A DNA stretch of 37,033 bases. It comes from a virus. This document shows positions 1,345 through 33,913 of the stretch, piece after piece. The stretch's first letter is position 1; every line of letters begins with the position of its first letter. A program made the position numbers and the translations under genes. The stretch is taken from IMG/VR virus record IMGVR_UViG_3300017917_000358, positions 1 through 37,033 of that record. The stretch is one strand, 5' to 3'. Under the pieces are notes generated by a model. The model saw only the letters and a list, made by a program, of their open reading frames with translations, was not told the DNA's origin and did not search any database.

Positions 1345-1980
1345 TCAGTTGTTTCCCGAGACAACATTCTGTATAAGATCATGTTCTTCCATGCTCATAG
1401 ATACATCGGCGTATCCGTTCTGTACGAACATGGTAGGGTATTGTTCTCTGATGATACTATCATGTAGTAGACCCGACGTAGTACCTTTCCAATGAGTTGA
1501 CACAGATGTTACGGGTTCATTGTGTATCCATTTCTGAAATGACAGTAGACAACAACCTGCAAATCGTTCGCCCGACGGATCATCCCCGTGCATCAATCCT
1601 GCAGGTCTTTTCCAATCTATAGTTCCCCAACGTGTAGACATGTTGTAGTTTTCTTGAGACGGGAACTGTTCGCCGCCGCCAAGCTGCATAGTAATTGTCT
1701 CTACGTTAGGATGACAGTGAGGTCTTACATACAATGCAGGATGTTCTAGATACAACTCTACTTGATACTGACCTCTTCTAAAAATAGATATGGCAGTAAA
1801 ATCATCCCCGCGAATTATATTCGCATTCCATGGAATCATCAATGGCATCTTAGCATCTAATACAAACCAGTTGAAGAAATCTTCTAATGTATTCCATGAT
1901 TCAGGAATCTTGATACCCATGTAATAATCGTTAGGGTTCAAAATTGACTGTGTAGCATTGTCTGGATGTGGTCCTATCAT
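1345..1980 (-). CDS. Cupin-like protein A (211 aa)
   Basis: This is a cupin-fold candidate and the last gene of the ten-gene operon. The segment HCHPNVETITMQLGGG (around residues 86-101) matches the cupin motif 1 pattern HxH(x3)E(x5-6)G, which normally binds a metal. It is a paralogue of the cupin at 3557-4168; both share an N-terminal IPxxWxxxExFxxW block, the MPxMxPWNAxxIR block and a C-terminal WKGxTxGxL block. The start at 1980 was chosen over upstream TTG because it has the phage's standard leader (AGGAAAATAAA-ATG). The P450 stop sits inside that leader. Cupins may be dioxygenases, isomerases or sugar epimerases; the substrate is unknown. Confidence 0.75.
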   Translation of the reverse strand: MIGPHPDNATQSILNPNDYYMGIKIPESWNTLEDFFNWFVLDAKMPLMIPWNANIIRGDDFTAISIFRRGQYQVELYLEHPALYVRPHCHPNVETITMQLGGGEQFPSQENYNMSTRWGTIDWKRPAGLMHGDDPSGERFAGCCLLSFQKWIHNEPVTSVSTHWKGTTSGLLHDSIIREQYPTMFVQNGYADVSMSMEEHDLIQNVVSGNN

Positions 1981-1981
1981 T

Positions 1982-3169
1982 TTATTTTCCTGATTCAATA
2001 ACAATGTTGGATATCATATCGTCATTTCCTGAGTCAGTAATAACATATGTTAAATCCTCATTATTTGTTAGAACTTTATACTTACCAAAATGTTTTAATA
2101 GTATTTCTAGGTAGACTTCCATAACTGCTTTAGCTATAGCAAGAGCAATACAAGCATGCGGGCCTCTTCCAAACGCTAGGCTGCCTGAGGTGTCACGGTG
2201 TATGTCAAACTTATCAGGGTCAGGGAATTTCTCAGGATCTCTGTTGCCAGATTCCAGACACAATGCTACACGTGTACCTGGGGTCAATAACACTCCATGC
2301 ATTGTAATTTCTTTCATCACTGTTCTAGAGAATCTTCCGGTAGATGCATGGAATCTTAAAGATTCGTCTACTGCTTTGGGAATCAGTGAAGGATCTTCCA
2401 TCAATATATCTAATTGATTTTCTCTGTATAAGTCTAATGTCAAGAACTGTAGTGCCCCTGTCAATGAGCTTGCACCTGACAATGTAGGGCCTGACAACAA
2501 TGATCTAGGATCAAAGTCTAATCCAGATTGTTCACGATTATCAAAATATTCTTTGTAGATACCCGGACCATGTGCAGGACATTTTGCAACATTGGATAAA
2601 AAGTGAGAGATGCCATAAGGTGTTTCGGGTTCAAAATTAAACATCTTCATGTAGCCACTATCATAGCTATGATCTGGATTTATTCTCACAGCTAATGGGG
2701 CTCGGCGTTGAATCTCAACAATCAAGTTTTTAATGACTGTTTTATCAAACGGATAATTCAACATCTCAGCAATTGTCCATGCACTAAGATGCTCAACCGT
2801 ATCTGAAATGTTGATTGTCTTTTTGTTTGAAAGATATTCTTCTGCTTTTTCTCTGAAAAGAGTAACAATCCTCTCAATATTGTCTTTTGAGTAAGCTTGT
2901 TTAACAGTATTTTTTAGTTGAGTATGAACGGGGTCATCGCTAGCCCCCAATGTTTTTCCAAATCTTTTAGAGCGTTCAGCTATTAAGTTTCCTTTAGCTG
3001 AAGAAAAGATATCTGGATTGGTTAGAGCGAACAAAATATCATCATATCTAGTTATTACATATAATTGATATCGTTCGCTCCAATATGCGACTTCGCTTGT
3101 GCGGAATGCTTTGTAGACTTCAAATTTGTTTAGTAACCAAGGACCTGCATGTGGGCTGAAGTATTCCAA
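1982..3169 (-). CDS. Cytochrome P450 (395 aa)
   Basis: This is a heme monooxygenase of bacterial soluble (class I) size. Visible motifs are ExxR in the K-helix (DESLRFHA, around residue 268), the PDKFDIHR segment (around 319-326) and the heme-binding loop FGRGPHACIA (around 332-341), with the usual final Gly of FGxGxHxCxG replaced by Ala. The I-helix segment reads SGASSLTG, so the usual acid-Thr pair of (A/G)Gx(D/E)T is Ser-Ser. That loss is seen in some P450s with altered oxygen activation, such as peroxygenases. The start is TTG at 3169 with a good ribosome site (AAAGGTG) 6 nt upstream. No ferredoxin or reductase gene is in the window, so redox partners would come from the host or elsewhere in the phage. 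Confidence 0.93.
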   Translation of the reverse strand: MEYFSPHAGPWLLNKFEVYKAFRTSEVAYWSERYQLYVITRYDDILFALTNPDIFSSAKGNLIAERSKRFGKTLGASDDPVHTQLKNTVKQAYSKDNIERIVTLFREKAEEYLSNKKTINISDTVEHLSAWTIAEMLNYPFDKTVIKNLIVEIQRRAPLAVRINPDHSYDSGYMKMFNFEPETPYGISHFLSNVAKCPAHGPGIYKEYFDNREQSGLDFDPRSLLSGPTLSGASSLTGALQFLTLDLYRENQLDILMEDPSLIPKAVDESLRFHASTGRFSRTVMKEITMHGVLLTPGTRVALCLESGNRDPEKFPDPDKFDIHRDTSGSLAFGRGPHACIALAIAKAVMEVYLEILLKHFGKYKVLTNNEDLTYVITDSGNDDMISNIVIESGK

Positions 3170-3209
3170 TTTTTCACCTTTGTATAAGTATCTATCTCAA
3201 TGAGACAGA

Positions 3210-3217
3210 TATTTATA
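3210..3217 (-). promoter_or_regulatory. Late promoter TATAAATA ahead of P450
   Basis: An exact T4-type late -10 box on the minus strand, 40 nt upstream of the P450 TTG. It overlaps the stop codon of the preceding 105-aa gene, so it would allow separate late expression of P450 and the last cupin. A 9-bp hairpin (3190-3210, with one G-U pair on the minus strand) lies just downstream. Confidence 0.6.
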
Positions 3218-3530
3218 CTGCTTGGTTAAGTTCTACAATTTCTACGATACCGTTTTGTTCTAGATATGCATTTTTGACAGCAATCAAATTCTCTTGAACT
3301 ACCGGGTCTGCTAACATAGCATCAACACTTTCTCTGGAATCCCATATCATAGTGATACTTAATGAAAGATTGTCCTCAGAGGTTTCAGTATGGATATAAA
3401 TTAATTTATCCGATTGCATGTAATTTTCGCGCCAATGTTGTTTGAACTCGTTAGACAATAAATCTGTCTGCATAGAAAAGAACGGTACGTCTACATTGGG
3501 TCTAATTTGTTTTCTGACTATTTGCCACAT
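3213..3530 (-). CDS. Small monooxygenase-like protein (105 aa)
   Basis: The length and pattern (alternating hydrophobic strands, a helix with WDSRESVDAMLADPVVQ, then a final strand GIVEIVEL) resemble the dimeric alpha/beta-barrel group that includes antibiotic-biosynthesis-type monooxygenases. No catalytic residues are certain, so the family call is an inference. It lies between a cupin and the P450 in the same operon, with a standard ribosome site (AAAGGAAACAATT-ATG). A role in tailoring the same product as its neighbours is plausible; a binding or stabilising role is the alternative. Confidence 0.5.
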   Translation of the reverse strand: MWQIVRKQIRPNVDVPFFSMQTDLLSNEFKQHWRENYMQSDKLIYIHTETSEDNLSLSITMIWDSRESVDAMLADPVVQENLIAVKNAYLEQNGIVEIVELNQAV

Positions 3531-3556
3531 AATTGTTTCCTTTAAGGGTGTATCTT

Positions 3557-4168
3557 TTATTTATCAGAAATATGCTTTTTAGGTTCAGAAACGTCTGCAT
3601 ATCCTGATGTTACATCTACTATTAATCCACGGTCTAAGAATGATTTTCTAATTAATTGTTCTTGTAATGGGCCGGCGGTGGGACCTTTCCATTGAATCGC
3701 AGCAGAGGTCATTTCTTCTATGTTTTCCCAACGCTGACATGCTAAGAAACATGTCCCGTTGCCCAATCTAGAACTAGTATCACCACCGTGTTCGTTTCCA
3801 GATGTGACATTGTGAAATACTTTACCCCACGTATATGTTACACCGGTTACATGCTTGCTTAATGGGTTTTTATGTCCTCCGCCCAAATCTACTACGATAA
3901 CTTCCATTCTAGGGTGGCTATGACGTTCTATGCTAAATCCAGGAAATTCCAAATATAGTTCTACTTGATAGTGCCCTTTTCTAAACACACAAATAGCAGT
4001 AGCGTCATCACTTCTAATGACTTCTGCATTCCAAGGCACCATGATAGGCATTCTAGCATCCATGTACCAGTCAACAAATTCTTCTATGTTTGCCCAATCA
4101 TCAGGGATGTCTATGTTAGCAAAATACTCAGAAGGATTGATAACCTTTTTGATTAGTGGGTCGTTCAT
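3557..4168 (-). CDS. Cupin-like protein B (203 aa)
   Basis: This is a paralogue of the cupin at 1345-1980, with the metal-type motif HSHPRMEVIVVDLGGG around residues 82-97. The two differ most in the segment after this motif and at the C-terminus, which suggests different substrates or a heteromer. ATG at 4168 follows the stop of the upstream PP-loop gene by 7 nt. No signal peptide is visible. The pairing of two diverged cupins with a P450 and a small monooxygenase-like protein suggests ring or chain tailoring, but the reaction is not readable. Confidence 0.75.
   Translation of the reverse strand: MNDPLIKKVINPSEYFANIDIPDDWANIEEFVDWYMDARMPIMVPWNAEVIRSDDATAICVFRKGHYQVELYLEFPGFSIERHSHPRMEVIVVDLGGGHKNPLSKHVTGVTYTWGKVFHNVTSGNEHGGDTSSRLGNGTCFLACQRWENIEEMTSAAIQWKGPTAGPLQEQLIRKSFLDRGLIVDVTSGYADVSEPKKHISDK
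3558..3565 (-). promoter_or_regulatory. Late-promoter-like GATAAATA
   Basis: A one-base variant of TATAAATA on the minus strand, 27 nt upstream of the 105-aa gene. It overlaps the end of the preceding cupin gene, so some of the match may be coding constraint. Confidence 0.35.
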
Positions 4169-4175
4169 ATGTTAC

Positions 4176-5465
4176 TCAATTAAAATTAAAATCGCTTGTT
4201 TTAGCAAACGTATATGATTTAAAATAGTTGACAAATCCAGTTCCCGACACGTTCAAGTATCTAGGAGATATAGATTTATACAGTGCAGTTGTCGCACTTA
4301 GAACCATTTCAGAATATCTAGTATTCTCATGTAGTTTATGTAGCCAAGCTTGGTCTCTTGTGAAGAAACCTGCATCTGCATTAACTTTAACACATTGATA
4401 CAAATCTTCTGTATACGTACTAGGATATATCAATGGTACAATAGCACGTTGGTAAAGTGTTTTTGTTGACAAAGCAGGTATTTTAGTATCATCTTTTAAA
4501 TAAGCCATGCATTTCTTAAAGATTTCGTCTTTGCTAGAAGGATCCAAGTTGTTTCTTATCTGATAATCTATTGCATCTTGCAAACTTGATACCATAGCAA
4601 TGTCCATTGTAGGGTTACCACTACCCAAAATATTAAAAATATTTTTAAACTGAGGTAGATGTGCTGCTTTTGCTACAACATGTGCCTGCTTTACCATGAT
4701 TTCTGGTAGATCAGGAGTCCAATAAAATAACACTCGGTCTAAATTAGGATGCTCCCTATCCGCCGGCATATTTAAGTAGTTGATGCCGGCATCACCTAAT
4801 ATGAAATTGATATCACCGTTTTTTGCAATTTTGATATTAGGCTTGTCAGTTCCGTATACTAATCCAACACGCTTGCCTGATTGTAGTAAATCGTCAATAT
4901 GCTTGAACTTTGCGACATTAGTAAAGTGAGATGTAAGTACAGTTACTATATTACCGCAGGCCTGATACGCCCAATACTCATCTTTGTACTTAACAATATC
5001 CTCAAAGAAATCGTTGATTGTAATCTTTATGCTAGGGTCTCTATCTGCAATTTCTGAAAGTATAGGGAACAATGCAAATTTAGTTTCAGAGATAGTATTA
5101 TCTTCATTTGTATTGTTGCGGTCAAAGTTCCAATTTGACAAGCCTGACATAGGTGCCAAAGCCATTACTTCATCTACACGAATTTTATTATTTAAAAAGG
5201 TTCGTATAACGTTATTACTGTCGGCGCCGCCACTACAAAAGACAATGATATAATCATATTGGTCTCTAATTTGCTGCGCTCTAATTCTATAAAGGTTATC
5301 TAATGTAGTTTCTGGCTCTACTGCCCAGTTTACTTTTGACAATTCTTCGTCAAAAAAATTCCATCTTACTGGTTCTTTTCGTTGTTGTGCAGCCATTATG
5401 GCATCAAACTTATTTGAATAGCGGGTGTTTCCTACACTGTAATATCCTAGTTCTGTTTTAATCAT
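4176..5465 (-). CDS. PP-loop ATPase, large (429 aa)
   Basis: The N-terminal third holds a strand followed by SGGADS (around residues 80-85), the ATP-binding PP-loop motif (SGGxDS) of the N-type ATP pyrophosphatase and asparagine-synthase-like superfamily. These enzymes adenylate a carbonyl before attack by an amine, ammonia or sulfur. There is no glutaminase domain. The C-terminal 250 residues are mostly helical and end without a recognisable RNA-binding domain, so a tRNA-modifying role is less likely but not excluded. It lies 11 nt downstream of a second PP-loop gene. Amide or ester bond formation in the operon's product is the working inference. Confidence 0.75.
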   Translation of the reverse strand: MIKTELGYYSVGNTRYSNKFDAIMAAQQRKEPVRWNFFDEELSKVNWAVEPETTLDNLYRIRAQQIRDQYDYIIVFCSGGADSNNVIRTFLNNKIRVDEVMALAPMSGLSNWNFDRNNTNEDNTISETKFALFPILSEIADRDPSIKITINDFFEDIVKYKDEYWAYQACGNIVTVLTSHFTNVAKFKHIDDLLQSGKRVGLVYGTDKPNIKIAKNGDINFILGDAGINYLNMPADREHPNLDRVLFYWTPDLPEIMVKQAHVVAKAAHLPQFKNIFNILGSGNPTMDIAMVSSLQDAIDYQIRNNLDPSSKDEIFKKCMAYLKDDTKIPALSTKTLYQRAIVPLIYPSTYTEDLYQCVKVNADAGFFTRDQAWLHKLHENTRYSEMVLSATTALYKSISPRYLNVSGTGFVNYFKSYTFAKTSDFNFN

Positions 5466-5476
5466 ATGTTCAATAT

Positions 5477-6442
5477 TTAGCTGTGACTTACATCTGTCAA
5501 ATGATCTTCACCTGCATTATGATTAACATATGTCAAATCATTCCGTAGATTTACTATTGATCTAGGGAAATAGTTTCTATAGTTAAGCCCATTGTATTTG
5601 GTACTTAAAAATCTTTCCATTTCAATGACAATTTCGTCTATCTTTTCAAATCCAGTTTGTTTTCTGCGTTCTATAAGATCAGGATGTGCTTCACGATATC
5701 CTATGATTTTAGTAGAATTACAACCGGTCTTGCCATAGTATTCGTCATTGGTTAACTTTGAAAACCAATTGAGATTCATATATGATAATACTAGTCCAGG
5801 AGTCCACTTAAACCATTCAGCAACTGCAGGCTTGTTAATAGCACGTGCAAATTTACTCCAACCTATATCATGTTCCCAGCATAATATTATCCAGTTACCT
5901 AGTTGACCTTGAATATATTCAGGTGTAGTTCTATGTAGTGTCAAATCGCTAGCACCTAATATGGGAAATCCTTCAGCATCTTCTATAAATTTACAATAGG
6001 GCAATGCTCTAGGTCTATCAATTTGCGCTAACTCTGATACTCTTTCAGCATCATTTTCATAGAACTTTGTTAGGTTAAAGTCAATTAAATCATATTCAAC
6101 ATTTAACATTGAACATACAGTAACCGCATAACTTACGTCATATAAGTTATAATCATTTTCATAGCGCATTATCGTGACCTTAGGTTTACATCCTATTTCA
6201 AGATATGACCTAAGCATTATTTCACTGTCAACGCCACCACTAAAGAATATGTTTGGCTTTAATCCCGGATGACATTCCAATGTGCTACGTGCGGCTTCTA
6301 GTAATTCTTCTTTAAATGACTTTACGGGTCTAGTCATTTTACTAAAATTAGTTCTGAACTGTTCTTTATTGGATTGTCTGCCGAACTTAGGACCGTCGCC
6401 GTATTGCCATGAATACCAATTGTTTTCTGATGTGTAAATCAT
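5477..6442 (-). CDS. PP-loop ATPase, small (321 aa)
   Basis: The PP-loop SGGVDS (around residues 68-73) follows a hydrophobic strand (NIFF), as in asparagine-synthase-like amidotransferases and related AMP-forming enzymes. Later conserved-looking segments include GASDLTLHRTTPEYIQG and FKWTPGL. There is no glutaminase domain. The start overlaps the stop of the upstream hydroxylase gene as ATGA, a sign of translational coupling. It is a distant relative of the neighbouring 429-aa protein; two in tandem could form a heteromer or act on two bonds. The substrate is unknown. Confidence 0.75.
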   Translation of the reverse strand: MIYTSENNWYSWQYGDGPKFGRQSNKEQFRTNFSKMTRPVKSFKEELLEAARSTLECHPGLKPNIFFSGGVDSEIMLRSYLEIGCKPKVTIMRYENDYNLYDVSYAVTVCSMLNVEYDLIDFNLTKFYENDAERVSELAQIDRPRALPYCKFIEDAEGFPILGASDLTLHRTTPEYIQGQLGNWIILCWEHDIGWSKFARAINKPAVAEWFKWTPGLVLSYMNLNWFSKLTNDEYYGKTGCNSTKIIGYREAHPDLIERRKQTGFEKIDEIVIEMERFLSTKYNGLNYRNYFPRSIVNLRNDLTYVNHNAGEDHLTDVSHS

Positions 6443-6867
6443 ATTGCACTCTTGTATGTACCAAACACTTTATCCCACAATGCAGTAAACAATCCGTAAT
6501 TTGAATTTGAACGGTGATGAATCATGTGCCATTTACCGCTCGTTAGTATAGGTATGTTGAATGTTTTATTATGCTCTATTGTTTCTTGTATGAATGCTGC
6601 CCATACATAGTAGAATATACTAATCCACCATTGTCCTGTAACTAAACTGAATAGTAACGTGGGAATAACTTCAGATAACCACAGGTCTAATGTGCTTTTC
6701 CAAGTATCATTGAACAGGAACAGATTAGACCAATGCCATCTAGTGTCATTATTTAATATGAATCTATGATGGTCTAAATGTATTTCTCTGAGTACAGGGA
6801 TTGCATGAGCAAATCTATGTATCCAGTATAATAACAGAGTCCAAGAGAAGAAATATACTATTATCAT
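6439..6867 (-). CDS. Compact fatty-acid-hydroxylase/sterol-desaturase-like protein
   Basis: The His motifs of the membrane di-iron hydroxylase superfamily are visible: HRFAH (residues 17-21), HLDHH (around 30-34), a lone His in IEHNK, and HMIHH (around 114-118). Hydrophobic segments lie at the N-terminus and in the middle (LLFSLVTGQWWISIFYYVW). At 142 residues it is short for the family, but the His clusters are complete, so it may be a minimal active form. Its start overlaps the desaturase stop (TGATG) and its own stop overlaps the next ATG. Confidence 0.82.
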   Translation of the reverse strand: MIIVYFFSWTLLLYWIHRFAHAIPVLREIHLDHHRFILNNDTRWHWSNLFLFNDTWKSTLDLWLSEVIPTLLFSLVTGQWWISIFYYVWAAFIQETIEHNKTFNIPILTSGKWHMIHHRSNSNYGLFTALWDKVFGTYKSAI

Positions 6868-7640
6868 CAGGTTTTAATCAATTTGATTATTAAACCAGCG
6901 ATATCAAATTCATACCATTTTTGTGCAAAGGTATAATTTTTAGGATACCTGTGGTGATTGTTATGCCAAGACTCTCCCCAACTAGGTATTGACCATAACC
7001 AATTGTTTGCGCTGGTATCTTTCAAATTGAAAGTTCTATAACCACCTAGCCAATTTGGTTTATGACCTACGAAATTAACTACATTACTCATTAGTGCAGT
7101 AATAACTGCGGGTATCAAATGTAAGAATACCATTAAGTAAAGTCCGCCTACTACATACAACAATAGACTATAGCTAACTAGAATTAGGAAATAGTAACGG
7201 TGTAAAATCTGCTGGTACTTGTCTTTTATAATATGCTTTAAGTAACGAGTTTTATCCTTGACAGTATAATTCAATGTAAAAATCTTTGCCCCGTCAATTG
7301 CAGGACTGTGCGGATCACCGGGTCTATCAGAATATAAGTGATGATTTACGTGAATATTAGCCCAGGCTAATGGGCTTCCTGTTCCTGCAAAAACACCAAA
7401 TAGTGAGAACAATTTAACCAAGTATGGATTTGTTTGATAACCATAATGTGTCAGATATCTATGATATGTCACTACAATACCCAAACAACCATATAAGAAA
7501 TACCCCAATACTATTAATCCAATGGATGCCCACGTTACACCGTAGGACATGATTCCAAAGATAGAAATAATTAATGCAGTAACTAGGAATACTTGTGCTC
7601 CTAATATGCTGCTGGTAGTAAATTGTCTTAGTGTTTTCAT
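6867..7640 (-). CDS. Fatty acid desaturase B (257 aa)
   Basis: This is a membrane di-iron desaturase of the acyl-CoA/acyl-lipid delta-9 type. It has the three His boxes: HRYLTH (around residue 64), HVNHH (around 101) and HNNHH (around 229). There are two hydrophobic pairs, at about 15-60 and 150-190. Its length is near the lower end for the family. The C-terminus (WYEFDIAGLIIKLIKT) matches the end of the second desaturase at 8821-9582, so they are paralogues. A GATAAATA box ends 5 nt before the ATG and no ribosome site is seen, so it may be read from a leaderless mRNA or by coupling to the upstream gene. Confidence 0.93.
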   Translation of the reverse strand: MKTLRQFTTSSILGAQVFLVTALIISIFGIMSYGVTWASIGLIVLGYFLYGCLGIVVTYHRYLTHYGYQTNPYLVKLFSLFGVFAGTGSPLAWANIHVNHHLYSDRPGDPHSPAIDGAKIFTLNYTVKDKTRYLKHIIKDKYQQILHRYYFLILVSYSLLLYVVGGLYLMVFLHLIPAVITALMSNVVNFVGHKPNWLGGYRTFNLKDTSANNWLWSIPSWGESWHNNHHRYPKNYTFAQKWYEFDIAGLIIKLIKT

Positions 7641-7645
7641 ACGTG

Positions 7646-7653
7646 TATTTATC
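7646..7653 (-). promoter_or_regulatory. Late-promoter-like GATAAATA
   Basis: A minus-strand variant of TATAAATA that ends 5 nt before the ATG at 7640, the same spacing as for the desaturase at 9582. It overlaps the stop codon of the upstream fusion gene. Confidence 0.4.
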
Positions 7654-8824
7654 TGTCAACTACCCATGCTAAGGACTCATATTTAATTGAACTGTCAATA
7701 ACAAGACGTTCTAATTCAGGAGAAGGATCTACATATACTTGCACTATTCCCTTACTTACATTTGGATAATAGGGTGCAGAGTGCTGTGTATGATAGTCAA
7801 AATAGTAAAATGTATTGCTATCTTCAGGCAATTCAGGTTTTCTAATTTCATTGTTTCTTCTAAGTATCCAATTTAACTTTGAATTAGTAGTCCACAACAA
7901 TGTTCTAAACTGAGGTTGAGGAGAATCATTATCTGAGTGCAGTGAAACAAATGACTTGTTTTCAATAACACGGATGTATCTAACTATACCCGGAATAGCT
8001 TCTTTGATTTGTCTAACTAAATCAGTTATCACTGGACTTTCAGGTGCTCTTGGACATTCATATACGATATTATCAATTATAGGAGAATTTTCAGTATAAC
8101 GATAGATTTCTAACGATCTCCATTCTGTCTTAATCGGATTATGTGTCTCAAATTTCTTTTTAGCATCACCTGAATATGTGTTCCATATATCCCACCATTC
8201 ATCCCAATTATTGGGTTCAATTCTAGGGACATTTAACGGGGAATACAATATCAATCTCGTTCTAAATTCTTCTTTTAATACACGTTTCTTGACTACGATA
8301 GTATCGGGCTTAACTGCTTTTCCCATTAGTCGCCAATGCAATTCTTGCTCTGGTTGTGTATTGGGAGGAATCGTATCCAATAGTATTAATTCGTATCTGC
8401 CTGTTTCCATGACAGAATTTCTCTGCCACTGACGTTCATATGCATTCATTACACGTTCAGCCACAGTATAGTAGAATTCATAATAGCCCTTGCTTTCAGC
8501 AAACTCAAATGCAGCTTTGAATAATTCAGCCATGTCATTGTTTTTAAAGCTAAAAACTTGTTTGAATTTCTTAGTATAAAGTCCGGGTATTACCCAGAAT
8601 TTGCCTCGCATTTTGCTTTCAAAGAAACCTAAGCATACAAAGCATATTAGTTCATCGTTTTCAAAATAACCAAGGGCAGCACTAGTTTCGTTACCCGTAA
8701 AGTAATGCGTAAAGTTGTCAACAAACTCATCCTTAGTTACTGGTACGGTCCCGCTAGTGCGGGATTTTAATCCAATCATTTCTGAGGCTGCTGGTAAATC
8801 TGCTTCAGTTAATAATCTAATCAT
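7649..8824 (-). CDS. GNAT acetyltransferase-like / 2OG-oxygenase-like fusion (391 aa)
   Basis: Residues 1 to about 150 look like a GNAT domain (N-terminal MIRLLTEADLPAASEMI, later LFKAAFEFAESKGYYEFYYTV). Residues from about 195 on match the separate 200-aa protein at 9608-10210: both begin with an LxxPxxxPxxxPxxWDxxWDIW pattern. The C-terminal half carries an HxD (LHSDND), a distal His in FDYHTQHSA and a basic residue in KGIVQVYV, the pattern of Fe(II)/2-oxoglutarate oxygenases of the Asp/Asn-hydroxylase type. The start overlaps the desaturase stop as ATGA. The fusion suggests acyl transfer and hydroxylation on the same substrate. Confidence 0.72.
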   Translation of the reverse strand: MIRLLTEADLPAASEMIGLKSRTSGTVPVTKDEFVDNFTHYFTGNETSAALGYFENDELICFVCLGFFESKMRGKFWVIPGLYTKKFKQVFSFKNNDMAELFKAAFEFAESKGYYEFYYTVAERVMNAYERQWQRNSVMETGRYELILLDTIPPNTQPEQELHWRLMGKAVKPDTIVVKKRVLKEEFRTRLILYSPLNVPRIEPNNWDEWWDIWNTYSGDAKKKFETHNPIKTEWRSLEIYRYTENSPIIDNIVYECPRAPESPVITDLVRQIKEAIPGIVRYIRVIENKSFVSLHSDNDSPQPQFRTLLWTTNSKLNWILRRNNEIRKPELPEDSNTFYYFDYHTQHSAPYYPNVSKGIVQVYVDPSPELERLVIDSSIKYESLAWVVDR

Positions 8825-9582
8825 GTTTTAAAAATCTTAATAAGCTGCCCGGTAATGTCGTATTCCCACCACTGTTCTTTAGTAGTCCAAGCAGATGCAT
8901 GTTTGTGATGATTGTTATGCCAACCCTCACCCCAAAGTAAAATAGAAAACAACCAACTGTTGGTGCTGTTATCGTCTGTATTGTGAGTTCTATACCCTAT
9001 CTTTGTGCTGTGCCCATAGTACAGAAATGAATTCCAAACAATACTAACAATTGTCACTGGCACGAACCACACAAAGTATGCTAACCAAGGTGAAATCAGT
9101 GCAAGAATAATTACGCTTAATAGAACTATTGCTACGTAATATTTGTTGATATCTAATTGTGTGTCAGTGAGCAAGTCTCTCACTAGTCTTTTGTTGACAT
9201 GTTCGCCGTGATTTGTCAATACAGGAAACAAAACTTTCAGAAAACTCATGTTTTGTATATGAGGATCTTTTTCAGTGTCACTAAATGCATGATGTTCTCT
9301 GTGTACATGCACCCACCCAATGATACTACCACGACATGTCATTAATGCTACCCACGTAAATAGCCATTTGACAAAACTATTTTTAAATTCAAAGCTTTTG
9401 TGAGTCCAATAACGATGTAGCATCATCCCCAATCCAATGCTACTGTAAATGAAGTAGCTGACAAATATTGCAATCAATGCTTGCCATGTAAATTCAAAGT
9501 AGAACAAGCCCGCAATTGTGCCCAATGTAGCAAACAATTGCATAATTCCTACCGTTAAAGCTGATGCCGATAAATATTTCAT
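8821..9582 (-). CDS. Fatty acid desaturase A (253 aa), first gene of the operon
   Basis: Delta-9-type membrane desaturase with HRYWTH (around residue 56), HREHH (around 95) and HNNHH (around 223), and four hydrophobic segments. The ATG at 9582 was chosen. A longer in-frame reading to 9717 would overlap the divergent gene and begin inside it, so it was rejected. A TATAAATA box ends 5 nt before the ATG with no ribosome site between, so the late transcript would be leaderless. It opens the ten-gene operon; desaturase B shares its C-terminal pattern (WWEYDITGQLIKIFKT). Confidence 0.93.
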   Translation of the reverse strand: MKYLSASALTVGIMQLFATLGTIAGLFYFEFTWQALIAIFVSYFIYSSIGLGMMLHRYWTHKSFEFKNSFVKWLFTWVALMTCRGSIIGWVHVHREHHAFSDTEKDPHIQNMSFLKVLFPVLTNHGEHVNKRLVRDLLTDTQLDINKYYVAIVLLSVIILALISPWLAYFVWFVPVTIVSIVWNSFLYYGHSTKIGYRTHNTDDNSTNSWLFSILLWGEGWHNNHHKHASAWTTKEQWWEYDITGQLIKIFKT

Positions 9583-9587
9583 AATCG

Positions 9588-9595
9588 TATTTATA
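9588..9595 (-). promoter_or_regulatory. Late promoter TATAAATA, minus direction
   Basis: An exact T4 late -10 box driving the ten-gene operon. It overlaps by two bases with a second exact copy on the plus strand, so 9588-9601 (TATTTATATAAATA) forms a bidirectional promoter. Confidence 0.7.
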
Positions 9596-9601
9596 TAAAT
9601 A
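9594..9601 (+). promoter_or_regulatory. Late promoter TATAAATA, plus direction
   Basis: An exact T4 late -10 box that ends 6 nt before the ATG at 9608. It is the plus-strand half of the bidirectional promoter. Confidence 0.7.
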
Positions 9602-9607
9602 GCAATC

Positions 9608-10210
9608 ATGGTAATATTTACACCCCTAGACTTCCCCCAATTAGTTCCCGATGACTGGGATGTATTCTGGGATATTTGGGAACGCAAGTCAGGTCCATTA
9701 GTAAAGCGCCTTGTCAATACTGAGTTGTCAACAGTTGAGCCCGGAACTGAGGGCTATTGGAAAGGGCTAGACTTATGGATTACACAATATCCTACAGTAT
9801 GGGATGCACCTGCATATGATGCTAGCAAAGAACTTCCAAACTTCTATAAAACGATTGACAGTTTCAGTAGAAAAATACGCTTGTACAAATTAAGATTGAT
9901 GCAAAGTACATGTGATATCAAAGCACACACTGATAACAATGTTGATAATTGGAATGTACGAGGTTTGATGCATTATACGTCTGACAAATCTCAGTGGTAT
10001 TTTACTAAACCAAATGACGATGAACGACATTATATAAACATGCCAAAAGATACAATGTGGTTTGCTTACAATGACGGAGCAAGTTGGCACGGAACAGACT
10101 TTGACCCAAATCATAAGAAGATATTGATTCAATTGTACTTTGTAGGAGACATGAGCGAAGTTATACAACAGAGCATTTCAAAGTACAAAGACTATACTAT
10201 AGAATTTTAA
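9608..10210 (+). CDS. Asp/Asn beta-hydroxylase-like 2OG oxygenase (200 aa)
   Basis: Probable Fe(II)/2-oxoglutarate oxygenase. It has HTD in IKAHTDNN (around residue 100), a distal His in GASWHGTDFD (around 161), then KKILIQLYF with a Lys suited to bind 2-oxoglutarate. The whole protein is paralogous to the C-terminal half of the fusion at 7649-8824. It is the first gene of the divergent plus-strand operon and has no ribosome site, since the promoter box ends 6 nt before the ATG. The substrate may be a small molecule or a protein side chain. Confidence 0.75.
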   Translation: MVIFTPLDFPQLVPDDWDVFWDIWERKSGPLVKRLVNTELSTVEPGTEGYWKGLDLWITQYPTVWDAPAYDASKELPNFYKTIDSFSRKIRLYKLRLMQSTCDIKAHTDNNVDNWNVRGLMHYTSDKSQWYFTKPNDDERHYINMPKDTMWFAYNDGASWHGTDFDPNHKKILIQLYFVGDMSEVIQQSISKYKDYTIEF

Positions 10211-10211
10211 A

Positions 10212-10778
10212 ATGGAATATTACAAAAGAATAAACTTAAAGTGCGAGAAATTGATAAGGGACTATTTATTAGACTTAGTATTAGTCCCTTCAGAAATTGA
10301 AGATCAGGTTAAGATACCGCATCGTCTACCCAAAGAACTATTACAGACCATCAATGATGAATTAGCCAGTTACGGTGTACCTGAATTACTATACTGTCAA
10401 AGTTACATACGAGCAAAAGGCACTACGCAAGGAATACATGTTGACGGGGTAGACTATTTATGGCATGCTGCTATTAACTTGCCTATACAAAATACCCAAG
10501 ATACTAAATTTACGTGGTATCATGGTGAATATACCATAGAACAGAAAACACAAGAGACGGGTGCTATCAGCGGTACTGCACCAATAACATTTTTTAAATT
10601 AACTGACGTTAAATCATTATACCCTGCAGCATCTATAGAATTAGATCAAGCTTGTTTGGTTAGAGTTGATGAGCCGCACAACGCAGAATCAAATTTTGAT
10701 GGATACAGATGGATATTCACTATGCGATTCAAAGGTAATCCTACATTTGAAGAACTGTACGACAAACTACCTTCATGA
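10212..10778 (+). CDS. 2OG-Fe(II) oxygenase-like protein (188 aa)
   Basis: The pattern is HVD in TQGIHVDGVDYLWHA (around residues 74-88), a distal His in VRVDEPHNAES (around 156) and Arg in GYRWIFTMRF (around 166-175). These fit the Fe(II) triad HxD...H and the 2-oxoglutarate-binding Arg. Short oxygenases of this kind are common in marine T4-like phages. The gene begins 1 nt after the previous stop, and its own stop overlaps the next ATG (ATGA). Confidence 0.7.
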   Translation: MEYYKRINLKCEKLIRDYLLDLVLVPSEIEDQVKIPHRLPKELLQTINDELASYGVPELLYCQSYIRAKGTTQGIHVDGVDYLWHAAINLPIQNTQDTKFTWYHGEYTIEQKTQETGAISGTAPITFFKLTDVKSLYPAASIELDQACLVRVDEPHNAESNFDGYRWIFTMRFKGNPTFEELYDKLPS

Positions 10779-11371
10779 TTAGTATCCAAGTCTACGACAA
10801 ATTAAAACACAAAGAAATTTTCTTTGATTTTTTAAAGTCTATCAATACAACTGACCCTGCAAGTGAAAACATGTGGGACGATGATTGGGAATCTAAGAAC
10901 TATACATTACCGTATATCTTAGAGAATACAAATAGATTTACAAATTCAAACGGAGAATTTCACATTGTCTTTGACGATGATAGAATAATTGCATGTGGTG
11001 GGGTATACATCAGCAATTTCTCACAAAATATTGCATTAGCGGGAGTAAGAACATGGGTAGACAAGAAATATCGCAACAAATTAGTAATGCGTGACATTCT
11101 GTTACCTAAACAAAAACAATGGTGTATTGCTCAGAACTGTAAGATAGTAGCAATAAGTGTCAACGAGTACAATAGAAATCTATTGATGCCGTTTAAAAGA
11201 ATCAGATTGGGTGAAGATAAGAATAGAATGTCAGATAGACAACCCTATCATTTATTCTATAACGGAGCGATAGAAGTAGAATTCCCCGTTACAATTCAGT
11301 ATACAAAGCAATGGGTCTTGTATGAGAAACTTGACCCACGCTTTGATTTTGATTGGTCTATTATTGCTTAG
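10775..11371 (+). CDS. GNAT acetyltransferase-like protein (198 aa)
   Basis: The central segment (FDDDRIIACGGVYISNF, then a strand, then VDKKYRNKLVMRDILL) has the strand-strand-helix order of GNAT enzymes, followed by a helix with IVAISVNEYNRNLL. The acetyl-CoA loop is not a clean RxxGxG/A (YRNKLV), so activity is uncertain. It is coupled to the 2OG oxygenase by ATGA. It ends in TAG, one of only two TAG stops seen among the window's genes. It overlaps the convergent SGNH gene by 11 bp with no terminator between. Confidence 0.55.
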   Translation: MISIQVYDKLKHKEIFFDFLKSINTTDPASENMWDDDWESKNYTLPYILENTNRFTNSNGEFHIVFDDDRIIACGGVYISNFSQNIALAGVRTWVDKKYRNKLVMRDILLPKQKQWCIAQNCKIVAISVNEYNRNLLMPFKRIRLGEDKNRMSDRQPYHLFYNGAIEVEFPVTIQYTKQWVLYEKLDPRFDFDWSIIA

Positions 11372-13587: not shown

Positions 13588-13664
13588 TGGTGCGCTAGAC
13601 AGGAATCGAACCTGCTACACTCTGGTTTAGAATCAGCTGCCCTTACCTTACGGGCTACTAGCGC
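13588..13664 (-). tRNA. tRNA, probable amber suppressor (anticodon CTA)
   Basis: The cloverleaf is complete: acceptor GCGCTAG/CTAGCGC, discriminator A, encoded CCA, D-arm GCCC-GTAAGGTAA-GGGC and T-arm GCAGG-TTCGATT-CCTGT. The anticodon arm is GCTGA-TTCTAAA-CCAGA. The central 3 bp pair; 31-39 is A-C and 27-43 is G-A. In this register the loop has U33, anticodon CTA (13628-13630) and A37, which reads UAG. The alternative register giving TCT (Arg) leaves no anticodon stem pairs. The charged amino acid cannot be assigned by eye. Confidence 0.75.
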
Positions 13665-29774: not shown

Positions 29775-29948
29775 TCACCACTTGTTAAGAGGACAAACTT
29801 CTTGTTGCTCTGATGTTAATACAGAGATGTTCTTGTCACATAATTGACAATGAGGTGATGGTTCTGGGATATTATTTTCACATACTACGCAAATGCTTAT
29901 GCGTTTAGCTTGTTCTGTTGGATTTATGTTGTTACCTAAAATAGTCAT
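29775..29948 (-). CDS. Zinc-finger-like small protein (57 aa)
   Basis: Two Cys pairs, CVVC (20-23) and CQLC (34-37), spaced like a zinc ribbon, plus one Cys near the C-terminus. ATG at 29948 overlaps the stop of the first LamG-like gene by 4 nt, a sign of coupling. It could assist tail assembly or act as a regulator; unknown. Confidence 0.7.
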   Translation of the reverse strand: MTILGNNINPTEQAKRISICVVCENNIPEPSPHCQLCDKNISVLTSEQQEVCPLNKW

Positions 29949-31153
29949 ACGCCGTATTCTCCCCTAGAGGCTGAAAAGTTTTGAAAAACTTGTGTTGCTG
30001 TCAATGCAGTGCCGTTATATATTGCCAACTGTGATATTGATCCTGCATAATATGCGGCCCAAGAAGCGCCCACCATGTTAACTGGATTGTTGTTTCCGCT
30101 TGTTGAGTTCGGTACATTACTATCAAGGACTCCGTCTACATACATATCCATAGTGCTGTTAGTATAGTTGACCCATGTTAGCATGTGCCATACGTTATCA
30201 TTGACTGTTGTACCGGTTCCTAACTTTTGTGCCCATGCACTATTTTGATAAGTCCAATATACTATTTTACCAGAGTTTACACCCATCATTGAATAGACAG
30301 GTCCTCCGCTACTGTTCGACAATACGGATCCTCCACCTAATACATTGCCTACGTTTGTCGTTGTTTTAATCCATGCACTGACTGTCCATGCAATATTTCC
30401 ATTACCTAATGTAGTGTTAGGGATAGTAATGTAATCTGAGCTACCGTTGAAGCTAAACGTGTTGCTTGTTGAATATGTCAAGCTATTAGTAGTAAGCGTG
30501 TTTGTTGCGGTTAAATCTAAAAGTGATTGTGTATTACTTCTAGAACCGTATGGCCCGGCAAATGGAACAGTAAGATTACTAGTAGAACTAATTACAACTT
30601 GTGGGTTTCTATATAGAATAAATCCGCTAGATGCTAAACTAGTGCCGTTACATGCCCCCGGATATAATAGCATTCTACATGTACCAGTTGATCCTGCCTG
30701 TGAAGTGAATGTAACAGTTTTCCACACCCCAGTTACTGAAGGTGTAGGGTCTGCTGCGCTACCACTTACTACACCTTCAAAGTTAGCTAGATAGTTAGTT
30801 ATCGGATAGCTGCCGGCACCCGGTGATATATAGAAGTCAAACGTGAATGTGGCATATTGCCCGGTATTGATAGTTACATCATTACCGTGATAATAACATC
30901 CACCTGCTGATACCAAATTATATTGATAAACTACGTCATTGTTTGTGATTGTGTATCCACCGTATGTTCCTGAATATACACGTTGAAAGACACCAGTACC
31001 TTGAACTTGAAATGTTACGTTGTTGCTTCCGTCTGGGGCAGGAATAGCAAACTGGTTTGTCACTGGCATTCCGCGCCAGGATCTTGAATTGTTCATGTCA
31101 TACTGTAGTGTCAACCCAGTAACTACGTCATTTGGTCCCGCTGCTATGCTCAT
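29945..31153 (-). CDS. LamG-like adhesin 1 (402 aa, long form)
   Basis: It starts with the array signature (GLTLQYDMNNSRSWRG) and ends QNFSASRGEYGV. Residues about 30-200 form an inserted beta-sandwich, carbohydrate-binding-module-like domain. Residues about 215-400 form a LamG/concanavalin-like domain (FSFNGSSDYITIPN, AWTVSAWIKTTT, MDMYVDGVLD). It is the most 3' of six tandem paralogues (29945-35267), and consecutive genes overlap by 1-4 nt. It is a likely receptor-binding fibre tip. Confidence 0.8.
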   Translation of the reverse strand: MSIAAGPNDVVTGLTLQYDMNNSRSWRGMPVTNQFAIPAPDGSNNVTFQVQGTGVFQRVYSGTYGGYTITNNDVVYQYNLVSAGGCYYHGNDVTINTGQYATFTFDFYISPGAGSYPITNYLANFEGVVSGSAADPTPSVTGVWKTVTFTSQAGSTGTCRMLLYPGACNGTSLASSGFILYRNPQVVISSTSNLTVPFAGPYGSRSNTQSLLDLTATNTLTTNSLTYSTSNTFSFNGSSDYITIPNTTLGNGNIAWTVSAWIKTTTNVGNVLGGGSVLSNSSGGPVYSMMGVNSGKIVYWTYQNSAWAQKLGTGTTVNDNVWHMLTWVNYTNSTMDMYVDGVLDSNVPNSTSGNNNPVNMVGASWAAYYAGSISQLAIYNGTALTATQVFQNFSASRGEYGV

Positions 31154-32475
31154 AGTCCAAACCTCCCGCTTATAGCATTGAAGTTTCTCAAAACTTCAAT
31201 GTCAGATAACGTTCTAGTATACGCAGTTACCATTGCCATATCTCCCTGCCAGAATCCGGCATACCCGTTACCTATTAAAATGTTTGCCGGTGTGTTAGCT
31301 AATACACCATATGGATTGGATGTAGTGCTGCTAAGTACTCCGTTAATATACCACTTGAATTCTGTTGTACTACGTGTAGCACACATCACATTCCATACAT
31401 TTCTGGGTGTTGCTGGACTCGTAACTCCTATATAAGGTGTATTGTCGCCGCCACCATTACCAAAGTATTGATTAATGTTCTCACCGTTTTCATGCGTCCA
31501 TGTTCCGTAACCAGCATACGCTTGATTCCATGGATTACGTCTACCGGTAGTATATGTATGTCTCATTACAATCTGTAGTGTTTGCGCTGATGAAAAATTT
31601 AATGTGCTGTTGTTCACAACAGTCCCGTAGTTTGAAGTACCATTAAATGTGTAGAATCCTGTGCCAGCAGACGGTAGATCGTTGAAAGTGCAATTGTTGT
31701 TATTACCGCTAACATCATACCATGTATTACCTGCGTTCTGTAATAGTTCTTGAATACTAGGTTCAGTACCATCACATACATCTACTCTAGGTTGATAGAA
31801 CTGCAATCTAGTAGTGTTGTCTGCACAGTAGTATAGATATGTTCTATGTATACCTTGAGTTGAGTTAGAACTCCATTTCAAGTCACCTGTACCAATGTTA
31901 CATCCGTTGACGTTACCTGCTCTACCGTTAGTAGTATAATAACCTGTGTCAGGATTTCTTCCAGTAAAAGTAGTATTTGCAGGATATACGTGACCCACCC
32001 ACAAGTACCATTGATTTTGTGTCAGTAAACTAGTGCCACTACATTCCCAATATGCGTTGCCTTCAACAGTACTGTTATCCATTCTACGAGAGCCATCACC
32101 GTTAGCATACATTCCGAAATAAAAAGTTCCGCCTGATGTACTTGATGTTCTGCGAACCCATACAGAATAACGATACATTTTTGTATTATCAATATTAAAC
32201 CAGTCTGTGTTCCAGCCACCGTCATCGTTAGTCTGTGCCAATGGTCTTGCTTCCCACACTACAGCATTGTTTCCCCATGGATTGCCGGCTACTACTCTTT
32301 CATTTTCTGCTGTCTGACCGTTTTGATTATATCCAGTAACGCCACCTGAACCAGTAGTCCAGTTGTTCCAGTTTATAAGCGTACGGTTACCTATATTAGA
32401 CTGAGGATTTGTTGCATCTAACATCAATGCTAAATTGCTAGTAGATGCAAATGATGGACCTGTTGCTACACTCAT
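31150..32475 (-). CDS. LamG-like adhesin 2 (441 aa, long form)
   Basis: It shares the array pattern (LALMLDATNPQSNIGN at the start, RNFNAISGRFGL at the end). The N-terminal 250 residues include a domain rich in Trp, Asn and Tyr (WEARPLAQTNDDGGWNTDWF) that looks like a carbohydrate-binding module. A LamG-like segment follows (YTFNGTSNYGTVVN, then FKWYINGVLSST). It overlaps both neighbours by 4 nt. Confidence 0.78.
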   Translation of the reverse strand: MSVATGPSFASTSNLALMLDATNPQSNIGNRTLINWNNWTTGSGGVTGYNQNGQTAENERVVAGNPWGNNAVVWEARPLAQTNDDGGWNTDWFNIDNTKMYRYSVWVRRTSSTSGGTFYFGMYANGDGSRRMDNSTVEGNAYWECSGTSLLTQNQWYLWVGHVYPANTTFTGRNPDTGYYTTNGRAGNVNGCNIGTGDLKWSSNSTQGIHRTYLYYCADNTTRLQFYQPRVDVCDGTEPSIQELLQNAGNTWYDVSGNNNNCTFNDLPSAGTGFYTFNGTSNYGTVVNNSTLNFSSAQTLQIVMRHTYTTGRRNPWNQAYAGYGTWTHENGENINQYFGNGGGDNTPYIGVTSPATPRNVWNVMCATRSTTEFKWYINGVLSSTTSNPYGVLANTPANILIGNGYAGFWQGDMAMVTAYTRTLSDIEVLRNFNAISGRFGL

Positions 32476-33197
32476 AAACCATATCTCCCTCTGTACGCAT
32501 TGAAGTTTTGCGTAATTTGATCCGAAGTTAATTTTACTCCATATAACTTTACTACACTTAGTTTTCCATTATAAAAGGCTGCTGTACCACCTCTAGAACC
32601 CAAGTATAGTATTGCATTTGCAAAACTTCCACCGGCAGTAGTTATAGTATTAGTAGGATATCCTGGACCCGCATCAAAAGATAATAGATTTCCGTTAACG
32701 TATACTAATCTTCCTGTACTATCAGCAATCTTTGAAAATATATTGACTTGTGTATTCCAGTTAGTTCCTATAGAAAAAAGATAATTTCTAGCACCTTCGC
32801 TGTTGTGATTAGTATGCATTGAGCCAGGTACGTCACTGTTACCATTGCTGTTGATTGCTACACCCCAGCCTCCTGCATTTGTATTCCAGTTGGCTGTGTG
32901 TTCAATAATGATTGAACTGGGGGTTGTTGTGTTTCCAGCAAACCATATCTCTGCTACTACATAGTCGTAAACACTTAGATTAATGTTGTTATTTGATGCT
33001 GCGTAGTCATTTACTCCGTCAAAAGTAAAAAACCCAGAACTATTGTATGCTACCCCGTTGAACAAAGTAAAGTGATTGTTGTTTCCACTAACGTCAAACC
33101 AAGTAGTCCCTGATCCAGGATAACTACGTGGATTAGCTGCATCTAGTAATAATAGTAAACTACCAGTGGAGATAGACGGGGAATGCTGTAGTGCCAT
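32472..33197 (-). CDS. LamG-like adhesin 3 (241 aa)
   Basis: Begins MALQHSPSISTGSLLLLLDA, then ANPRSYPGSGTTWFDVSG, and ends QNFNAYRGRYGL. The middle has the LamG core (FFTFDGVNDYAASNN). The N-terminal type (MALQHSPSI) matches adhesin 5. A 53-bp stretch (33082-33134) is identical to one in adhesin 4. Confidence 0.82.
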   Translation of the reverse strand: MALQHSPSISTGSLLLLLDAANPRSYPGSGTTWFDVSGNNNHFTLFNGVAYNSSGFFTFDGVNDYAASNNNINLSVYDYVVAEIWFAGNTTTPSSIIIEHTANWNTNAGGWGVAINSNGNSDVPGSMHTNHNSEGARNYLFSIGTNWNTQVNIFSKIADSTGRLVYVNGNLLSFDAGPGYPTNTITTAGGSFANAILYLGSRGGTAAFYNGKLSVVKLYGVKLTSDQITQNFNAYRGRYGL

Positions 33198-33850
33198 TAT
33201 AAACCGTACCTTCTACGTATCGCATTAAAGTTTTGCGCTACTTCTGCCGCAGACAGTGCCCTATTATATAATCTATAAACACCTATTCTTGTGGCGGCAT
33301 AAAAGGCGTCAGCATTGCCATTAATTCTACCCAACGCTGTACCTACTCCAGCAGTGCTGGTATTGAGTGCAGGGCCTGTTGTGACTGCTCTAGTTTTAGT
33401 TAATGTTGATTGGACATTATTTATATAGTTGCTGACGTTGGTTGTTTCAACACCAGGACCATTCTTAGTCCATACTATATGATACCAAGTATTCAATACA
33501 TAATCAACACCAGTGTCTAATCTCGTAGAATCATACATATCAAAGTGAATTCTATTTGTGCTTGGTGCCCAACCTTCAAAACTCAAACCTTGCCCTGCGC
33601 CGCCTAATCCCCAGAATCCAGCGTTAGAAAAATTCTGTGGCACTTGTACTACAAATTCAATTGTGCAACTAGGATCTCCGTTAAGCGTAGTAGTTCCTAT
33701 GTTTGCTTGCATATATTGGTTAGTTCCATTAAAACCAATATATCCTGCGGACCCTGAGACATAAGTAGGAGTATTGTATAGAGTACCATTGTTTCCATTT
33801 CCACTAACGTCAAACCAAGTAGTCCCTGATCCAGGATAACTACGTGGATT
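33082..33850. repeat. Exact 53-bp direct repeat in two adhesin genes
   Basis: 33082-33134 and 33798-33850 are identical over 53 bp and encode the same part of the NPRSYPGSGTTWFDVSGN block in adhesins 3 and 4. The flanks differ. It marks a recent duplication or gene conversion. Confidence 0.85.
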
Positions 33851-33913
33851 TGCAGCGTCCATGCATAATACTAATCCATTAGTAGAAATAGAAGAATTAT
33901 AATTTACTGTCAT
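33197..33913 (-). CDS. LamG-like adhesin 4 (238 aa)
   Basis: Begins MTVNYNSSISTNGLVLCMDA, then ANPRSYPGSGTTWFDVSG, and ends QNFNAIRRRYGL. The LamG core is YIGFNGTNQYMQAN. The N-terminal type (MTVNYN) matches adhesin 6, so the two N-terminal types alternate along the array. Its start codon shares a base or overlaps with the next gene. Confidence 0.82.
   Translation of the reverse strand: MTVNYNSSISTNGLVLCMDAANPRSYPGSGTTWFDVSGNGNNGTLYNTPTYVSGSAGYIGFNGTNQYMQANIGTTTLNGDPSCTIEFVVQVPQNFSNAGFWGLGGAGQGLSFEGWAPSTNRIHFDMYDSTRLDTGVDYVLNTWYHIVWTKNGPGVETTNVSNYINNVQSTLTKTRAVTTGPALNTSTAGVGTALGRINGNADAFYAATRIGVYRLYNRALSAAEVAQNFNAIRRRYGL

Follow-up and report, generated by a model that had tools for sequence, protein, structure and literature searches.

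A putative biosynthetic gene cluster recurring in large uncultured phages

The DNA analysed here (hereafter the window) is the complete IMG/VR record IMGVR_UViG_3300017917_000358, a 37,033-base fragment of an uncultured phage. Ten minus-strand open reading frames (ORFs), from 9582 to about 1345, form a compact operon, its junctions ranging from -23 to +43 nt, and it encodes desaturases, PP-loop ATPases and oxidative enzymes. This block is very likely a dedicated biosynthetic cluster, and we put at roughly 0.6 the probability that it belongs to a modular family of such clusters in large uncultured phages. While infecting, these phages probably produce a small molecule that is lipid-like or an amide. 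A sequence-only reading had proposed the same ten genes (1345-9582) as a biosynthetic operon; all of the ORFs are present with compact junctions, and the plus-strand genes at 9608-11371, which it had left out, are also part of the block. The genes are as follows (2OG, 2-oxoglutarate).

1345-1980, minus: cupA, the second cupin-like paralogue; its ORF opens at TTG 2004, ATG 1980 being the likelier start
1982-3169, minus: P450, a cytochrome P450 related to P450-T2/CYP203A1
3213-3530, minus: small protein of 105 aa, from a family present one to three times per cluster
3557-4168, minus: cupB, cupin-like, with a conserved HSHPRME motif
4176-5465, minus: PPl, a large PP-loop ATPase whose family is unnamed and almost confined to phages
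5477-6442, minus: PPs, a PP-loop synthetase of 321 aa resembling the synthetase domain of AsnB and beta-lactam synthetase
6439-6867, minus: FAH, of the fatty-acid-hydroxylase family (PF04116)
6867-7640, minus: Des2, a membrane di-iron desaturase and the anchor of the conserved core
7649-8824, minus: two-part protein of 391 aa, its N half without a family match and its C half 2OG-oxygenase-like (HxD...H)
8821-9582, minus: Des1, a membrane di-iron desaturase of the DesA family, 253 aa from ATG 9582
9608-10210, plus: 2OGa, 2OG-oxygenase-like by motif, in the divergent arm of the block
10212-10778, plus: 2OGb, HxD-containing, 2OG-oxygenase-like by motif only
10775-11371, plus: GNAT acetyltransferase (PF00583, 21.7 bits against a cut-off of 20.7)

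Linkage and viral setting of the cluster

The genes of the block travel together. Around 28 distinct loci of Des2 relatives (at least 50% identity, neighbours within 8 kb), Des1 was found at 24, GNAT at 24, PPs at 23, PPl at 19, the small protein at 14, FAH at 8 and P450 at 5. In a comparison set of 35 loci with distant desaturases, PPl was nearby at three and the small protein at one. A desaturase also lay within 5 kb of PPs at 50 of 66 distinct loci. This linkage is far beyond chance. The conserved core consists of Des1, a 2OG-oxygenase-like protein, Des2, often FAH, the AsnB-like PPs and usually PPl. It is ringed by exchangeable oxidative and transfer enzymes, which in the window are the P450, the cupins, the 2OG enzymes and GNAT.

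The locus is viral and not bacterial contamination. Genes assigned to tail-fibre and endolysin PHROGs are present in the window, and a 348.7-kb viral contig (L004) with a terminase has a related cluster at about 184-191 kb. This cluster and that of a second contig, L002, are both collinear with the window. Most of the core proteins shared with L002 are 55-88% identical, the gene in the PPl position being only 30% identical, with closer PPl copies farther along. Compared between the window and L002, the cluster genes are close to saturation at synonymous sites and have a ratio of nonsynonymous to synonymous change (pN/pS) of 0.12-0.40, indicating that they are under purifying selection. The window backbone (NrdA, NrdB, endolysin and others) is shared in varying subsets with G003, G008, G010, G011 and G026, and in most backbone-sharing contigs the cluster adjoins peroxiredoxin and/or AhpD. 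When gene order was followed in other phage genomes, as had been recommended, the block was found again in related phages, at the same genomic position and with its genes reshuffled. The cluster is thus more widespread than the sequence-only reading knew, and the findings that would have told against it (scattered genes, destroyed catalytic sites, bacterial contamination) did not appear: the genes stay linked, the catalytic motifs are intact and the DNA is viral.

The distribution of PPl points in the same direction. Scans with short degenerate patterns, which distant members escape in both data sets, placed PPl relatives at 396 places in viral contigs and at one across 84,980 bacterial and archaeal species genomes. 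This lone non-viral relative (L092) sits on a 3.2-kb contig of a Methylococcaceae metagenome-assembled genome and could be misbinned phage DNA. No tblastn match to PPl, P450, cupB, PPs or Des2 was found in a collection of 50,697 phage records, and megablast found no phage record matching window positions 1-24000 at the DNA level. A desaturase match in Acinetobacter phage MD-2021a (L201, CAKLQH020000002.1) was set aside because the record reads like a bacterial chromosome; it carries trpB, trpC, btuB and baeRS and is probably a mislabelled entry.

Other neighbours were seen repeatedly. Radical-SAM proteins with a B12-binding domain stand beside the core at 12 of the 28 Des2 loci (for example L004, 2516-3985). 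On many further phage contigs PPl is paired with solute-binding proteins, lying near TctC-type ones at 54 of 85 loci and near DctP-type ones at 40 of 85 (L014, L015 and L018 among them), and the PPl-adjacent DctP proteins seemingly have no signal peptide.

Enzyme families encoded by the cluster

Family assignments were judged against the Pfam cut-offs (22.8 bits for P450, 29.7 for FA_desaturase and 31 for FA_hydroxylase, besides that given above for GNAT). Des2 and Des1 match PF00487 at 61.5 and 60.8 bits, respectively. The three desaturase His boxes are all kept without change across the 17 aligned sequences, and transmembrane segments are predicted, so that profile, His boxes and membrane segments agree on membrane fatty-acid desaturases. 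FAH matches PF04116 at 56.1 bits over profile positions 2-132 of 132, with its His motifs present. On this evidence Des1, Des2 and FAH are assigned to membrane di-iron lipid-type enzyme families. The P450 matches PF00067 at 73.5 bits and has the heme-Cys loop FGRGPHAC at 333 and the ExxR motif, as ESLR, at 269. Pfam therefore bears out the two desaturases, the hydroxylase and the P450 of the earlier reading.

The two PP-loop ATPases that it had named are also upheld, since both carry the SGGxDS motif, which reads SGGVDS in PPs. AlphaFold2 models of the two proteins (mean predicted local distance difference test, pLDDT, 87 for PPs and 85 for PPl) were compared with known structures by Foldseek. 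The best match of PPs was 1mc1 (E 2e-7, about 13% identity), and its nearest folds are beta-lactam synthetase and asparagine synthetase B. Hidden Markov model (HMM) searches of the PDB also matched PPs to NAD synthetase and QueC; its identification as QueC was rejected, as it scored 12.7 bits against the TIGR00364 equivalog cut-off of 150.3. For PPl, neither Pfam nor the PDB HMM search gave a match. Among known structures its model matched the PP-loop core alone (LarE, GMP synthetase and carbapenam synthetase, E about 1e-3), and its full-length fold matches were solely uncharacterised proteins of uncultured phages. Both proteins look like new synthetase families.

The remaining assignments are less firm. 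CupA and cupB are paralogues, 41% identical, with a conserved HxHxxxE motif, the basis for calling them cupin-like; neither has a Pfam match over the cut-off, cupA giving a sub-threshold match to Pirin, and the PDB HMM search found nothing for the family. The two-part protein had been read as a GNAT/2OG-oxygenase fusion. Its C half aligns with the 2OGa family, in which the HxD...H pattern is invariant, and this motif carries the 2OG-oxygenase likeness of both, as neither matched Pfam and hhalign gave weak matches. The GNAT half of that claim is not supported: the N half has no Pfam match, in the window protein or in stand-alone versions, and no hhalign match to a true GNAT family. The two halves are separate genes in L010. 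Moreover, 2OGa is conserved adjoining Des1 in L002 and others, and 2OGb, which has no Pfam match, is conserved beside the cluster. The 105-aa protein had been called monooxygenase-like; the (antibiotic biosynthesis) monooxygenase assignment found no support, since neither the window protein nor three relatives matched a Pfam family, and a PDB HMM search with its family gave nothing useful.

Related clusters, predicted product and alternatives

Relatives of the cluster add further biosynthetic enzymes. Contig G009 encodes 10-11 desaturases, a ketosynthase, an acyl carrier protein (ACP), an AcpS-type phosphopantetheinyl transferase and a RimK-like ATP-grasp protein, together with a Rieske-type protein, a rubredoxin and a weakly aminotransferase-like protein. 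The ACP exceeds the Pfam cut-off in two relatives, AcpS also scores above its own, and the rubredoxin is over the cut-off in 6 of 23 records. The catalytic Cys-His-His is visible in three ketosynthases. The order PPs, AcpS, small protein, RimK-like protein, desaturase, ketosynthase, desaturase array and ACP is kept in L198, L199 and L200, whose ketosynthases are 99% (L198 and L199) and 71% (L200) identical. A desaturase, the aminotransferase and another desaturase follow the ACP in L198 and L199, while the L200 sequence ends soon after it. The ketosynthase-bearing G010 shares the window backbone, and G020, with ACP and AcpS, shares the peroxiredoxin, aldolase and AhpD neighbours of the window. 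By adding ACP, AcpS, ketosynthase, ATP-grasp ligase and rubredoxin, these relatives place the window cluster in a family of biosynthetic clusters carried by phages. Taken together, the linkage and gene order kept across many viral contigs, the purifying selection and the enzymes added in relatives strongly support the biosynthetic character first proposed for the operon.

Nearly consecutive desaturase arrays of five to nine genes were also seen on two phage contigs, at 1172-10322 in L179 and 13790-17604 in L188.

From the desaturases, the hydroxylase and the ACP and ketosynthase of relatives, an acyl-derived product appears reasonably probable, and the AsnB/beta-lactam-synthetase-like fold of PPs gives amide formation about even odds. 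In the proposed pathway, the di-iron enzymes would unsaturate and hydroxylate a fatty-acyl-type substrate at the membrane. The window phage would take the acyl group from its host, and some relatives would assemble it on an ACP of their own with their own ketosynthase. PPs, and probably PPl, would then adenylate a carboxylate and join it to ammonia or an amine, giving an amide or lactam, after which the GNAT, 2OG, cupin and P450 enzymes might tailor the product. Its predicted form is an oxidised, unsaturated acyl amide or amino-lipid that could affect the membrane of the host, target competitors or serve as a signal. More tentatively, at somewhat under even odds, large uncultured phages may own a natural-product cluster class of their own, marked by phage-only PP-loop synthetases and desaturase arrays, some with ACP, AcpS and ketosynthase, diversified by exchange at a recurring slot and making acyl-derived amides for infection or competition.

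Several observations weigh against this interpretation. No ACP, ketosynthase, AcpS, AMP-ligase, ferredoxin or rubredoxin was found in the window or in the 348.7-kb relative, and substrate loading and electron supply must therefore be provided by the host or by genes that are missing. That the long relative does without them suggests that the core works without phage-encoded ACP, ketosynthase or electron carriers, the window itself being a fragment. PPs and GNAT also occur near the distant desaturases (at 15 and 18 of the 35 loci, respectively); being widespread near phage desaturases generally, they mark the cluster less specifically than do PPl, FAH and P450. PPs, at 321 aa, has no Pfam match and neither a class II glutaminase domain nor the Asn_synthase profile. 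Several cluster gene products have no verified family, and the substrates of all the cluster enzymes are predicted. Finally, the I-helix of the P450 reads SGASS instead of AG-x-D/E-T/S, so that the acid of the acid-alcohol pair is missing. This pair serves O2 activation and is common in P450s, although it is not required for membership. The best PDB relative of the P450 is 8FBC (P450-T2), at 156 bits compared with 97 for the next. P450-T2 is a hot-spring metagenome enzyme and a CYP203A1 homologue, and it was reported to bind L-mimosine, a small polar amino acid and not a lipid (PMC11334723).

Remodelling of the host membrane could also account for part of the block, with the desaturases and the hydroxylase altering bulk host lipids, a role already proposed for the lipid desaturases of cyanophages, and the other genes as unrelated passengers. 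Des1, Des2 and FAH are of the lipid-type families that such a role would need, and cyanophages are known to carry lipid desaturases (Roitman et al., as cited in PMC8224337). Passengers would not stay linked as PPs does to desaturases (the 50 of 66 loci), with ACP, ketosynthase and AcpS added in some relatives, and up to 10-11 desaturases per contig exceed the expected need of bulk remodelling; this explanation is considered unlikely. Slightly lower still stands modification of a surface or virion glycan, in which the block would produce a sugar or tail decoration bearing acyl, sulfate or amide groups. Epimerase, cytidylyltransferase-like, sulfotransferase-like and glycosyltransferase genes do lie near PPl or the cluster in several related contigs, and the window contains tail-fibre genes, but the core in the window contains no recognised glycosyltransferase or sugar-nucleotide enzyme, and the genes labelled in L002 and L004 include none either.

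Hypermodification of nucleic acids, with a QueC-like PP-loop protein and oxygenases acting on phage DNA bases or tRNA, is a long shot: PPs has weak QueC-like matches (PHROG 1550, E 0.0016; 3bl5, E 0.0045), but it falls short of the QueC cut-off, its best fold is that of AsnB and beta-lactam synthetase, and known base modification gives no role to membrane desaturases, ACP or ketosynthase. An assembly artefact or bacterial contamination might be suspected from the position of the cluster near the edge of a 37-kb fragment and its slightly lower GC content (0.36 compared with 0.40), but chimerism and contamination are ruled out, at a probability close to nil, by the same arrangement in independent metagenomes, including the 348.7-kb terminase contig, by the backbone common to relatives and by the near-absence of PPl from bacterial and archaeal genomes.

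Known systems and expression signals

The modular biosynthetic cluster preferred here has partial counterparts in bacteria. Alkyne and polyyne clusters combine the jamABC cassette with two desaturases, a thioesterase and a rubredoxin, and in some actinobacterial polyyne clusters a P450 stands in place of the thioesterase and rubredoxin (PMC8406139). The phage clusters are similar in having several membrane desaturases and, in relatives of the window, ACP and rubredoxin as well. They differ in that the defining fatty acyl-AMP ligase, which was found in none of eight records including the window and in one of 18 further relatives, is missing from the window and from 24 of the 25 other records tested. 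Unlike the jamABC cassette, they also have PP-loop synthetases and 2OG, Rieske and cupin enzymes, and they lie in phage genomes. PPs has its synthetase-domain fold and SGGxDS motif in common with asparagine synthetase B and with the beta-lactam and carbapenam synthetases, at about 13% identity and without their N-terminal glutaminase domain. P450-T2/CYP203A1 is the closest solved relative of the phage P450, with AGVES in the I-helix where the phage protein has SGASS.

Phages carry single metabolic genes, and temperate phages also carry small bacteriocin-type clusters. Phage-carried biosynthetic genes are already known as a kind, and the present clusters may form a distinct viral natural-product class. 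The cyanophage lipid desaturases mentioned above are alike in being phage-encoded fatty-acid desaturases; they differ from the present case, in which the desaturases are part of a cluster of several enzymes, synthetases and oxygenases included, and the phage lineage is another one. Rhodobacteraceae prophages carry acpP-fabF-fabG genes (PMC8224337) and thus also have a phage-borne ACP and ketosynthase. That set resembles a piece of the housekeeping fab operon, whereas the ACP, AcpS and ketosynthase described here, all outside the window, are set among arrays of desaturases, together with PPs and a RimK-like ligase. In the isolated Pelagibacter phage Mosig EXVC030M (MT647606), genes for an Asp/Arg hydroxylase, a fatty-acid desaturase, an aminotransferase, a TauD dioxygenase, a GNAT protein and a peroxiredoxin are adjacent. 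Mosig differs in having no match to PPl, PPs, P450 or cupB, and its desaturase is distant from those of the clusters (29.7%). The Mosig locus (L202) is a possible cultured model for such clusters.

No description of a phage cluster with this enzyme combination was found in the literature, most subscription papers and bioRxiv preprints lying outside the search. Together with the 50,697 phage records, this leaves standing the earlier statement that no phage system with this gene set had been described. If the interpretation is true, viruses would be an untapped source of natural products, PPl having hundreds of viral relatives and almost none in bacteria, and some phages would chemically alter their host or surroundings in ways nobody has measured. 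The cluster also supplies enzymes that can be tested directly, PPs and PPl.

Two further features frame the operon.

9583-9607, no strand: divergent gap of 25 nt between Des1 and 2OGa, in which the palindrome TATTTATATAAATA gives the T4-late-like TATAAATA on both strands
about 905-951 (core 915-948), minus: hairpin resembling an intrinsic terminator, with a U run after it, downstream of the operon

Across the whole window, TATAAATA was found four times against 4.4 expected; there is no excess, and the placement alone is notable. Within 35 nt upstream of Des1, the motif [TAG]ATAAATA occurs at 14 of 29 distinct loci, compared with 75 of 582 other ORFs (Fisher p 9e-6). This enrichment points to T4-type late transcription without proving it, because genes that open an operon are expected to have promoters and because the loci are related. 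The operon would probably be expressed late from promoters of this type. The hairpin core has a predicted energy of -20.4 kcal/mol (z -4.06), and two tRNAs lie further left of the operon, at 188-415. The 23-nt overlap between cupA and P450 probably vanishes if cupA starts at ATG 1980.

A tRNA with anticodon CTA, of the amber suppressor type, lies at window positions 13588-13664 (minus strand). Stop codons in the 42 main ORFs of the window are TAA in 25, TGA in 15 and TAG in two, so that TAG is rare. Farther along, at 29945-35267 (minus strand), six consecutive genes encode LamG-like or virion structural proteins. Five of these belong to one paralogous family, and the run is possibly a diversified host-recognition array.

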